Source: Microcaldota archaeon (GTDB taxonomy: Archaea; Micrarchaeota; Micrarchaeia; Micrarchaeales; CABMGC01). From it: 64,000 nt of DNA. The stretch's first letter is position 1. Each line of letters opens with the position of its first letter. The position numbers were made by a program, and so were the translations under genes. The stretch is taken from NCBI GenBank assembly GCA_021802765.1, contig JAJZRI010000004.1, positions 1 through 64,000 on the forward strand, written 5' to 3'. The notes beneath the pieces are model-generated. The model did not search any database, was not told where the DNA came from, and saw only the letters and a program-made list of their open reading frames with translations. Shown here one piece after another: positions 33,182 through 46,246 of the stretch.

Positions 33182-34237
33182 TCATTCTCTCCTAACCTTT
33201 ATCAGCTCGGCCTTCTTGTCAAAATCCTCAATGTTTATATCTATCCTGCTCCTTCCATCGCTCTCAATCTTCACATGGACGTCATCTACCCGGTTATTTA
33301 TGAAATCCTTTAACGCTTCCCTCATATGATGCTTCCATAACGCCACATCGCTCTGATTTGGCACGGCTCCTTTGCCCATCCTTATCTTGGGCATGCGCCA
33401 CAGCTCATCTACCTTGTCAGGATATCTGCCATACATACCCACTTCCTCGTAATGGTTTCTCGGACTGATCTCATATCCTGTGACTAGTATATAGTAGAAA
33501 CGGTCGCCATGCAGCTCTCTGAAACTGCCGGCCCTGCCTATGCTAAAATCATCTTCTGAATGGAGCTCTATAATCGCCTGTTTTCCATTTACGAAGAACG
33601 GGGTGATAATGTCTGGAGGATAAGTGTGACGTCCTCCAGCGCGCAGCTGCCTGAGGAATTCCTCTTCCCGTGCAGCATCTGATTCCTGTTCAAACCTTCT
33701 AATCGTGCTCTTTATCTTGCCTTCTTGTTGCGGGCTAAACTTTCTTACATATGCAAGCACCGTCTTCCACCCAAGCTCCTTCGCAGCCTTCAGGCTGTAA
33801 TTTCCATCCACTACCTCGTATTTATCACTTTCAATTAGTTCGGTTATCTGCCCTTTGCCTCTGCCCGAATGCTCTCCGTCTGTTTTCGTCTGCGCTGATT
33901 CTATCCGTTTTACTATTATCGGGTCTAACTGGCCCCTGGCAATGAAATCTCTCTTAAGCGCATCAAGCTTGGCCTGGTCGATGTCCCTAGGCGACCAAGT
34001 CCCATAGTCTATCTTGTCAACGCCAATTCTATGTGTCTTCGTTATGTCGAAGGTGATTGCTTCATACCATACTGGCGCAATCCTCATATCAAGTAGCAGT
34101 TCTTTCATGGCAAGCTCATACTGGCCGCTGACCTCGGTCCTCCCATTTAGCAAATGTCTATCCCTAAGCACTATGCTCTCCCCGGAGCGCACTATGTCGC
34201 TTGGGATGTGGTGTACGGTTTCACCATGATGCAACAA
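33182..34237 (-). CDS. ParB/sulfiredoxin-like domain protein
   Basis: YGTWSPRDIDQAKLDALKRDFIARGQLDPIIVKRI...YEVVDGNYSLKAAKELGWKTVLAYV. Confidence 0.75.
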   Translation of the reverse strand: MLHHGETVHHIPSDIVRSGESIVLRDRHLLNGRTEVSGQYELAMKELLLDMRIAPVWYEAITFDITKTHRIGVDKIDYGTWSPRDIDQAKLDALKRDFIARGQLDPIIVKRIESAQTKTDGEHSGRGKGQITELIESDKYEVVDGNYSLKAAKELGWKTVLAYVRKFSPQQEGKIKSTIRRFEQESDAAREEEFLRQLRAGGRHTYPPDIITPFFVNGKQAIIELHSEDDFSIGRAGSFRELHGDRFYYILVTGYEISPRNHYEEVGMYGRYPDKVDELWRMPKIRMGKGAVPNQSDVALWKHHMREALKDFINNRVDDVHVKIESDGRSRIDINIEDFDKKAELIKVRRE

Positions 34238-34330
34238 ACTCTCCCCAAAAGATTGGAAATTAACTCCTATTTATATCTTCTATACAGGAAAAAGGCAAGC
34301 GCAGCTTGGCTAGCAAAGAAAAATGATAGT

Positions 34331-34419
34331 GGACTCCGCGGGATTTTCGAAACATAGTTTATTCGAACCCGCAACCTCCTGCATGCCATGCAGGCGCGCT
34401 ACCGTTGCGCCAGGAGCCC
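34331..34419 (-). tRNA. tRNA-Ala(GGC) with an intron in the T-loop
   Basis: Reverse strand GGGCTCC-TG-GCGC-AACGGTA-GCGC-G-CCTGC-ATGGCAT-GCAGG-AGGTT-GCGGG-TTCGAA[18 nt]T-CCCGC-GGAGTCC; all stems pair (one G-U). Confidence 0.93.
34344..34361 (-). other. 18-nt BHB tRNA intron at position 59/60 of tRNA-Ala(GGC)
   Basis: GCGGG-TTCG-AAT-AAAC-TAT-GTTT-CGAA-AAT-CCCGC: 4-bp central helix TTCG/CGAA, two AAT bulges, AAAC/GTTT inner helix; cutting AA|T restores TTCGAAT. Confidence 0.9.
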
Positions 34420-34425
34420 ACCTTT

Positions 34426-34650
34426 TCAGACAGGAGACAGGAAAAGTATGTTACCTCCGCGAAGAAGTATGGTTCCGAGCTTGGTCTTGAGCGTTCCTTC
34501 ATCAAGCTCCTCCGCACCCTCTATCACTATGTTCATATGTGCATCGAAAGAGACCACTTTTCCGCGTATATCTATCCCATTCTTGAGCCTGATCATTACC
34601 TGCTGTCCTATGGACTTATTTATAAGGTCAAAAGGTCTTTCCTGCGTCAT
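34426..34650 (-). CDS. LSm/Sm-like archaeal protein
   Basis: RPFDLINKSIGQQVMIRLKNGIDIRGKVVSFDAHMNIVIEGAEEL...LRGGNILFLSPV; Sm1 and Sm2 motifs. Confidence 0.95.
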   Translation of the reverse strand: MTQERPFDLINKSIGQQVMIRLKNGIDIRGKVVSFDAHMNIVIEGAEELDEGTLKTKLGTILLRGGNILFLSPV

Positions 34651-34763
34651 ATAAAACACCAAAACGACAGTATATACTCATTGCATAAGTATTAATAACT
34701 GCCGTGCCCGTCATTTCCAGTAATGCATAAGCTATATCTATCTTTATATTTTCAATTATTAAC

Positions 34764-36749
34764 ATGAAGCGCCAAAGTAGCATGAAGCACCAGAGCGCCA
34801 TAGAATATCTAACAACCTATGGTTGGGTGGTTTTGGTAATAGCGATAGTCCTCGTGTCAATGATACGTCTCAACATATTCAATTCTGCCTATCTTACGCC
34901 AAAAATGCCTCCAGGGTCATGCAGCGTATCAAGGAATGTCTATGGCGGTGCAACATTCGGCTCCGGATGCACCAACGGCTTGCCGCAGTTCGTTACACAA
35001 CTGAACGGCCAAAGCTCGGTCAACGTGCCAAATACCAACCTGCTAAATCCCAACTCAATGACCATAACAGCATGGTTTGAGCTAACAAATCCTTCAGTCA
35101 ACCAGCGCATACTCTCAAAAGCGGCCATTTCGGGAACTGACGAATACAGCATGTATTACAATTATCCTTACTTTGGTGGCAGTTTAACTACATCTTCCGG
35201 ATCAGGATACCTGCAGGCCAATTATATTATTCAGGCAAACGTGCTCTACTTTGGTGCTGTAACCTACAGCAGCTCGACCAATACAATCTCATTATACTTG
35301 AATGGGGCTTTACGGGCATCTTCAATATCAATAGTTAATGGCCCGATATCTCCCTCTACTAACCCGCTAACCCTCGGATTTGCAAGTGGGACAGGTCAGG
35401 GCGGTAACCTCAACGGATATCTTTCAAACGTCCAAGTGTACAACACGACACTTTCCGCTGCATCCATACAGTCCTTATACCTAGAAGGAATCGGAGGCAT
35501 GCCCGTAAATCTTCAGCATCTTGTAGGATGGTGGCCGCTAAATGGAAATACGACCGACTATTCAGGAAATGGAGACAATGGCGCGACAACATCTAATTCA
35601 CAATATGTAAGTTCTTGGTACAACTCCTATTACTCACCAGAAGTCGCAACATCAACAACTACTGAGCAGTCCACTACTACTGTATCTACAAACGCTGCAA
35701 CAAATGCTGCAACAAACGCTGCAACAAACGCCGCTACAAACGCTGCATCATCAACGTCGACATCAACCTCCACTTCTACATCCTCCACATCCACTTCTAC
35801 CTCTACGTCTACCTCAACTGTTTCAACAAATGCCGCCACCAACGGAGCCACCAACGGCGCAACCAATGCTGGAACCAACTCCGCGACCAACTCCGCAACC
35901 AACGCAGCCACCAACGCCGCATCTTCGGCAACTGGATGCAGCGGATCGGTCTACGGCAGCGCCAACATCACGCTTGCAGATGGCACTACAATACCTGCAG
36001 ACCAGATAACGGCGGGCACAACGATACTCTCTTACAACCTCGTCACGCACTCCCTGCAGCCGTCATTAGTTTCAGGAGTGTTCAGTCTAGTTTCGAACAA
36101 CACTTATGTCTTTAACCACAACTTGAAGGTGGACGGAAGCGAGATAATGCTGATAAACGGCGTCTGGGCGAGGGCACGCAGTGCAAAGGTCGGCGATAGT
36201 CTATTCAACCCACTCATCAACAAAAGTATAGTTATAACTGACATAAATGTTACTAACATCGGAGGAACAGTATACGATCTATTAGGGTCTCCCATAAACA
36301 ATTACATAGCTAACGGATACCTTATTGACAAAGATACAACTGCAGGAGAAGATAGCTGCGCGTCTACTGCCGGTGCTTCACAGATAACTCTCGCCGACGG
36401 TTCGACCGAACCTGTAAGCAGCGTGAGCACGGGCACGCTTGTGCTAGGTTACAATATGCTCACAAAAACGCTCGAGCCAACAATAGTGATCTCAAGTGAT
36501 TTCCACAATACCACAACCGAGTACATAATCAACGGAAACCTGAAGGTCGACGCCAACGAACAACTCATAGTCAACGGAACAGATGTTCATGCAGCAAACC
36601 TGAAAATTGGAGATCACCTATTCAATCCACTTACAAATCAGAACATTGTCGTATCCAGTATAAAGATAATCAAAGGCAACTTCACTCTCTACGACATAAA
36701 CACTGCACCTGTTGATGATTATGTGGTTAACGGATACTTGGTAACATGA
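34764..36749 (+). CDS. Class III signal-peptide pilin-like protein with LamG-like domain, T/N/A/S-rich linker and two C-terminal Hint-like modules
   Basis: QSAIEYLTTYGWVVLVIAIVLVSMI; LVGWWPLNGNTTDYSGNGDNG; NAATNAATNAAT and STSTST linker; ITLADGTTIPADQITAGTTILSYN and ITLADGSTEPVSSVSTGTLVLGYN each followed by NGYL at the end. Confidence 0.75.
   Translation: MKRQSSMKHQSAIEYLTTYGWVVLVIAIVLVSMIRLNIFNSAYLTPKMPPGSCSVSRNVYGGATFGSGCTNGLPQFVTQLNGQSSVNVPNTNLLNPNSMTITAWFELTNPSVNQRILSKAAISGTDEYSMYYNYPYFGGSLTTSSGSGYLQANYIIQANVLYFGAVTYSSSTNTISLYLNGALRASSISIVNGPISPSTNPLTLGFASGTGQGGNLNGYLSNVQVYNTTLSAASIQSLYLEGIGGMPVNLQHLVGWWPLNGNTTDYSGNGDNGATTSNSQYVSSWYNSYYSPEVATSTTTEQSTTTVSTNAATNAATNAATNAATNAASSTSTSTSTSTSSTSTSTSTSTSTVSTNAATNGATNGATNAGTNSATNSATNAATNAASSATGCSGSVYGSANITLADGTTIPADQITAGTTILSYNLVTHSLQPSLVSGVFSLVSNNTYVFNHNLKVDGSEIMLINGVWARARSAKVGDSLFNPLINKSIVITDINVTNIGGTVYDLLGSPINNYIANGYLIDKDTTAGEDSCASTAGASQITLADGSTEPVSSVSTGTLVLGYNMLTKTLEPTIVISSDFHNTTTEYIINGNLKVDANEQLIVNGTDVHAANLKIGDHLFNPLTNQNIVVSSIKIIKGNFTLYDINTAPVDDYVVNGYLVT
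35685..35933 (+). repeat. Coding low-complexity tandem repeats (12-bp period ACAAACGCTGCA-like; 6-bp Ser/Thr units)
   Basis: Repeats of ACAAACGCTGCA, TCNACNTCNACN and ACCAACGGAGCC encoding (TNAA)n, (ST)n, (TNGA)n. Confidence 0.9.
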
Positions 36750-46122: not shown

Positions 46123-46246
46123 GGCGGGGTAGCTCAGCCTGGTTAGAGCGCTAGACTCATATGCTAAGCTTTTATGAGTGATGAGCATTTATTGCGATGA
46201 CTGCTAAGAAATCTAGAGATCGGGTGTTCAAATCTCCCCCTCGCCA
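46123..46246 (+). tRNA. Elongator-type tRNA-Met(CAT) with intron
   Basis: GGCGGGG-TA-GCTC-AGCCTGGTTA-GAGC-G-CTAGA-CTCATA[intron]A-TCTAG-AGATC-GGGTG-TTCAAAT-CTCCC-CCTCGCC-A; one U-U mismatch in the T-stem. Confidence 0.88.
46162..46210 (+). other. 49-nt tRNA intron at canonical 37/38
   Basis: Removal leaves anticodon loop CTCATAA; boundary ambiguous by 1 nt; bulges TAT/AAA flank CTCA/TAAG (3 bp plus one C-A mismatch). Confidence 0.78.

Follow-up and report, generated by a model that had tools for sequence, protein, structure and literature searches.

Fujishima 2011 and Hirata 2012 are said to describe the tRNA introns of ARMAN-1 and ARMAN-2 and their epsilon2 endonuclease. Intron position 59/60, T-loop introns with a bulge-helix-bulge (BHB) motif, the non-canonical introns of ARMAN-1 and ARMAN-2, and the epsilon2 enzyme itself have all been published (PMC4090602, PMC4033280, PMC6379350, PMC12397907). 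Among archaea, non-canonical tRNA introns located at 59/60 are known from Thermoproteales and others through the work of Sugahara, Fujishima and Kanai (reviewed in PMC4090602, PMC4033280). The locus described here, which lies in a 64,000-nt stretch of DNA (hereafter the window), resembles these introns in position, in its BHB-type motif and in its short length, and also in that other tRNAs carry unusual introns and that similar introns are common to tRNAs of one genome. Unlike the Thermoproteales introns, it belongs to a different phylum with a different endonuclease type, and it recurs in a single isoacceptor across an entire order, with frequent switches between presence and absence, beside an lsm gene. 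It is like ARMAN-2 in that the splicing endonuclease (EndA) is a full-length homologue with the same catalytic and ARMAN-specific-loop (ASL) residues, and in that Ca. Micrarchaeum sp. A_DKE, named as the same genus, has a tRNA-Ala(GGC) intron. The introns of nucleomorphs and Cyanidioschyzon merolae share the T-arm location and removal by a BHB-recognising endonuclease, but they occur in eukaryotic genomes, with other tRNAs and enzymes (PMC4090602). The literature searched, to which Fujishima 2011 did not belong, contained no description of a 59/60 tRNA-Ala(GGC) intron, an order-wide hypervariable pattern or a link to lsm, and the splicing-endonuclease literature searched contained no mention of a tRNA-Ala(GGC) intron in Micrarchaeum.

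We concluded, with a probability of roughly 94%, that the tRNA-Ala(GGC) gene in the window, from an archaeon of the Micrarchaeota, is functional, and that its T-loop is interrupted at position 59/60 by a BHB-type intron of 18 nt, which EndA would excise before RtcB joins the exons.

The tRNA-Ala(GGC) gene

The reverse strand of the locus (Table 1) reads GCGGG-TTCG-AAT-AAAC-TAT-GTTT-CGAA-AAT-CCCGC, letter for letter the decomposition into stem, helices and bulges given in an earlier note on this DNA; the span of 34331-34419 assigned there located the gene but omitted the discriminator base A73 at 34330. Excision of the intron in silico gives GGGCTCC TG GCGC AACGGTA GCGC G CCTGC ATGGCAT GCAGG AGGTT GCGGG TTCGAAT CCCGC GGAGTCC A, a full 72-nt cloverleaf with a GGC anticodon, the pairs G1:C72, G2:C71 and G3:U70, and A73. 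G3:U70 is the alanine identity pair. Compared with the intact tRNA-Ala(TGC) of the same genome, 66 of 72 positions of the spliced sequence were identical and all six mismatches fell within the anticodon arm, so that excision restores the form of a tRNA-Ala everywhere outside that arm.

Table 1. Features of the tRNA-Ala(GGC) locus in window coordinates
Feature	Position	Strand	Remarks
tRNA-Ala(GGC) gene	34330..34419	-	90 nt with intron, 72 nt spliced; G3:U70 and A73
5' exon, tRNA positions 1-59	34362..34419	-	acceptor 5' strand, D arm, GGC anticodon arm, variable loop, T stem 5' strand, TTCGAA
Intron, 18 nt, TAAACTATGTTTCGAAAA	34344..34361	-	T-loop position 59/60; bounds if both bulges are cut AA/T
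3' exon	34330..34343	-	T60, T stem CCCGC, acceptor GGAGTCC, A73
Central helix, exon strand TTCG (T54-T55-C56-G57)	34364..34367	-	pairs with CGAA at 34346-34349
Central helix, intron strand CGAA	34346..34349	-	base facing R57 covaries with R57 in relatives
5' bulge AAT, putative 5' splice site AA/T	34361..34363	-	initial AA in 68/68 unique introns
3' bulge AAT, putative 3' splice site AA/T	34343..34345	-	AAT in 54/68 unique introns; the rest retain the final T
Inner intron hairpin AAAC-TAT-GTTT	34350..34360	-	inner helix length varies among relatives
Lsm/SmAP protein gene, upstream of tRNA-Ala(GGC)	34426..34662	-	78 aa; PF01423, E 4e-21

As in archaeal BHB motifs, two 3-nt bulges with a 4-bp helix between them are located at the exon-intron borders, and a 4-bp central helix together with a 4-bp inner helix and 3-nt bulges arose in only 0.05% of random 18-nt inserts. 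Nearest-neighbour folding of the window pre-tRNA gave -37.3 kcal/mol for the strict BHB versus -40.4 kcal/mol for an alternative in which a 6-bp TTCGAA/TTCGAA helix forms, because TTCGAA is self-complementary, and hides the 5' bulge. The 'perfect' BHB fold claimed previously was thus borne out in the letters of the motif and in the fold conserved among relatives, but it is not the minimum-energy fold of the naked RNA; since the competing helix is favoured by 3.1 kcal/mol, the naked pre-tRNA may, in this model, resemble a relaxed motif. The spliced product is identical for both geometries.

The insertion across the order

In a DNA search of 80 relatives, the tRNA-Ala(GGC) matches of most genomes broke off at position 58 or 59. 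The parsed matches of these relatives were combined with 80 named contigs (almost all titled Ca. Micrarchaeota, with some Ca. Marsarchaeota, a single Ca. Mancarchaeum and a single Ca. Micrarchaeum sp. A_DKE) and 60 further genomes, so that 132 genomes of the order were scored. The search patterns applied to these contigs and additional genomes stop short of the insertion site, and therefore did not select for an insertion. An insertion of 13-48 nt was found at the same T-loop site in 77 of the 132 genomes, including the single-contig A_DKE, and the T-loop was exactly 7 nt long in the remaining 55.

Among the 68 unique intron-bearing T-loops, the 5' bulge began with AA in all, and the central helix had four of four pairs in 55 and three of four in 13. 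Position R57 covaried with its intronic partner (G-C 13, G-U 2, A-U 44, A-C 0; Fisher p 3e-11 with the sequences treated as independent and kinship ignored). R57 was A in most relatives, where the exon is non-palindromic, no TTCGAA palindrome exists and the 3-nt bulges flanking the 4-bp helix are still kept. The rest of the intron was hypervariable and mostly unalignable between genera, with an inner helix of 0 to 12 bp that was contiguous over only 0-1 bp in 26 of the 68. Such conserved bulges and a covarying central helix amid otherwise hypervariable introns provide strong evolutionary evidence, at the sequence level, that the insertions of the order are spliced introns. The non-canonical 59/60 BHB intron proposed for this gene accordingly gained a motif conserved in relatives and a restored tRNA in its favour, while its splicing is what these two features imply.

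Splicing enzymes

A single splicing endonuclease gene was found in the genome, encoding 388 aa with two PF01974 and two PF02778 stretches. It matches ARMAN-2 EndA (4FZ2, residues 11-387; E 6.8e-147) over its full length, and also 9W2K, and has the architecture of an epsilon2 enzyme, a single chain of about 390 aa with three fused units (alphaN-alpha-betaC); an ARMAN-type host with such an endonuclease had been anticipated. In the alignment to 4FZ2, the catalytic residues Y236, H251 and K282 and the ASL residues Y160 and K161 were all conserved, and the roles of these residues in ARMAN-2 EndA have been described (PMC12397907). The ARMAN-2 enzyme cuts both BHB and BHL pre-tRNAs in vitro and requires the ASL loop for the BHL substrates, and by analogy the EndA studied here is likely to have broad substrate specificity (PMC12397907). 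RtcB is also encoded in the genome (E 4e-163).

The gene, its intron, the conserved motif and both enzymes are thus present in the sequence, and we infer transcription, cleavage positions and ligation as follows. The tRNA would be transcribed, perhaps at the 3' end of a joint transcript with lsm, and TTCG of the T-loop would pair with the intronic CGAA in the pre-tRNA. The epsilon2 endonuclease would then cut both bulges as AA/T, and ligation of the exons by RtcB would bring back the intact T-loop TTCGAAT.

Detection by tRNA finders and the alanine tRNA set

The earlier note's expectation that standard finders may miss the gene proved right. ARAGORN listed four tRNAs in the window without tRNA-Ala(GGC), and Rfam RF00005 scored the locus at 21.1 bits, under the gathering score of 29, with the 3' half misplaced and TTCG taken as a false 3' end. 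The genome searched comprises 872 kb in 17 contigs and is about 81% complete. It yielded 37 tRNA matches, including Ala(TGC) and Ala(CGC), among which there was no second Ala(GGC), and a pattern search from anticodon to T-stem hit the window locus as the single place in the genome. The intact Ala(GGC) elsewhere that could have spoken against the gene was therefore not found at this level of completeness, and a second copy could sit in the missing part. In five genes nearby, 58 of the 157 Ala codons are GCU or GCC, and tRNA-Ala(GGC) is therefore needed; the gene is probably essential.

In the same genome, Ala(GGC) and Ser(GGA) both fell below the calling threshold of the tRNA tools used because of their T-loop introns. 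Many of the tRNA sets that are reported as incomplete in Micrarchaeota may thus be complete but hidden.

Introns in other tRNAs

The T-loop intron pattern gave candidates in 59 of the 80 relatives versus about two control matches, and in 85 of 147 sampled genomes across the phylum, counted as pattern matches. The candidates that were checked by splicing in silico belonged to tRNAs for Arg, Ser, Ala and Cys, among others. In the genome under study, tRNA-Ser(GGA) (contig C11:20031-20072, reverse strand), which the genome-wide Rfam tRNA search did not report, has two introns, one of about 12 nt in its anticodon loop and another of 31 nt in its T-loop; an insertion of 14 nt lies in the T-loop of tRNA-Leu(CAA) (contig C2:26572-26670), and tRNA-Leu(TAA) (contig C8:1963-2029) has a D-loop intron of ~20 nt that forms a BHB (UCUG/CAGA, GUU bulge, UGGC/GCCA).

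Similar introns were also found in different tRNAs of one genome. In A_DKE the T-loop introns of Ala(GGC) and Cys(GCA) were alike at 12 of 13 nt, in one relative (G059) those of Arg(CCT) and Arg(TCT) were identical, and in another (G022) Ala(GGC) and Ala(TGC) were alike at 26 of 32 loop nucleotides. Judging from the likeness in A_DKE, introns appear to be mobile among tRNA genes, and this sharing parallels the intron transposition of Thermoproteales (PMC4090602, PMC4033280).

Two further tRNA loci were observed in this genome. The elongator tRNA-Met(CAT) in the window (46123-46246, forward strand) has an anticodon-loop insertion of about 50 nt, and was missed by ARAGORN and called Ser(CGA) once introns were allowed. 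On contig C6, an intact tRNA-Asn (255049-255120) is accompanied by an identical 3' fragment (246060-246114) in the same orientation, an arrangement characteristic of integration of an element into tRNA-Asn.

Alternative explanations and intron history

The window locus is known from a single contig of one assembly, and a pseudogene, or a sequencing or assembly error that added 18 nt to a normal tRNA-Ala gene, could in principle account for it. Such an error was named beforehand as a refutation and is excluded by the insertion at the same site in the 77 separately assembled relatives, A_DKE among them, with bulges and helix preserved; apart from the 18 nt, the tRNA is also perfect and the genome offers no replacement Ala(GGC), so we rejected error and pseudogene alike as scarcely credible. 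Whether a real intron is instead cut as a relaxed motif, with the TTCGAA/TTCGAA helix formed, only the 3' bulge free and the broad specificity of the epsilon2 enzyme sufficing, is a different matter. The 3.1 kcal/mol advantage of that helix, the near-absent contiguous inner helix in the 26 introns mentioned above and the ASL-dependent cutting of BHL substrates by ARMAN-2 EndA (PMC12397907) all point that way, but in most relatives the A57 exon is non-palindromic and the 4-bp helix is still flanked on either side by a 3-nt bulge, and the spliced product is the same from either geometry; we regard a relaxed cut as unlikely, though worth keeping in mind beside the strict BHB that we prefer. The intron might also persist because it breaks up the 3' half of the tRNA, which integrating viruses and plasmids could otherwise use for attachment, as in the Randau-Soll hypothesis. 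T-loops and 3' halves are the usual attachment sites (PMC4090602), and the 54-nt 3' copy of tRNA-Asn located 9 kb from the intact gene is what an integrated element would leave, but no Ala attachment-site copy was noticed in the genome, intron loss is frequent and many other tRNAs have no intron, which makes this purpose quite improbable.

The history of the intron was evaluated on a tree of a single gene, DNA polymerase DP2 (64 rows, quick search), on which 62 genomes were scored for the intron. Presence and absence required 13 changes, and state was weakly clustered, with 47 of 2000 label shuffles reaching 13 changes or fewer, so the intron behaves as a fast-switching trait for which gain and loss are not separable. 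The shared 59/60 introns could have arisen recently and independently of one another, by copying from one tRNA gene into a hot spot of another, and the mostly unalignable sequences between genera, the near-identical introns in different tRNAs of A_DKE, G059 and G022 and the large-scale tRNA intron transposition in Thermoproteales (PMC4090602, PMC4033280) give this reading real weight. On the other hand, 13 losses from an intron-bearing ancestor are a most parsimonious history, while an intronless ancestor costs 14 changes, or 16 with gains at double weight, and we hold independent insertion to be a serious contender on the lesser side of even odds. The tRNA-Ala(GGC) intron is probably a shared hypervariable element of the order, present early and precisely lost many times, with gains possible. 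The order offers a large natural series of gain or loss at one exact tRNA site, together with a single-chain, structurally solved endonuclease, and through this series models of tRNA intron turnover become testable.

Spacing from the lsm gene

Lsm proteins are RNA chaperones. In the window, the end of the lsm stop codon is 6 nt from tRNA-Ala(GGC), and lsm was located upstream of this tRNA within 150 nt in 96 of the 132 genomes. In the first set of genomes, the gap was 30 nt or less in 30 of 47 intron-bearing versus 4 of 25 intronless cases, where the cut-off was chosen on this same set after the pattern had been noticed without prior plan; in 60 held-out genomes fetched later, the corresponding counts were 21 of 30 and 2 of 30. 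Intronless genes had longer gaps or a different neighbour. A genus-stratified test over the six genera with both states gave p=0.0016, with one genus (g2) as the exception in that its one intronless member was also short-gapped, and an independent-pairs control on the DP2 tree gave a median p of 0.125 one way and a weakly positive 0.031 the other. A scan with a crude motif detected no clear difference in TATA occurrence between loci that have the intron and loci that lack it (24/69 vs 22/48, p=0.25).

Either the intron matters for processing of a shared transcript, or intron loss often accompanies replacement or relocation of the gene. A more specific and speculative proposal, to which we assign a low probability, is that the T-loop intron, like a lock, fixes the order of processing of the lsm-tRNA transcript, selected in tight loci and lost with the acquisition of an own promoter or with relocation. 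The tRNA would then have no promoter of its own and be made as the trailing part of the lsm mRNA, and the intron would block T-loop formation and with it any cutting by RNase P or tRNase Z before EndA splicing. Blocking release of the tRNA would avoid truncation of the lsm message, and selection would keep the intron in tightly coupled loci until the tRNA gained a promoter or moved. If the spacing link is causal, this would be an archaeal tRNA intron with a function in processing.

Directly downstream of tRNA-Ala(GGC) is a gene for a 351-aa protein with a ParB N-terminal-like domain (33182-34237, reverse strand), and past it a TatD DNase gene, tRNA-Arg(TCT) and both DNA polymerase D subunits follow. 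Divergent from lsm is a gene for a 661-aa protein (34764-36749, forward strand). This protein has a LamG-like domain and repeats rich in Thr, Ser and Asn, and two blocks near its C-terminus, similar to each other, had no Pfam match and appeared Hint-like by eye.
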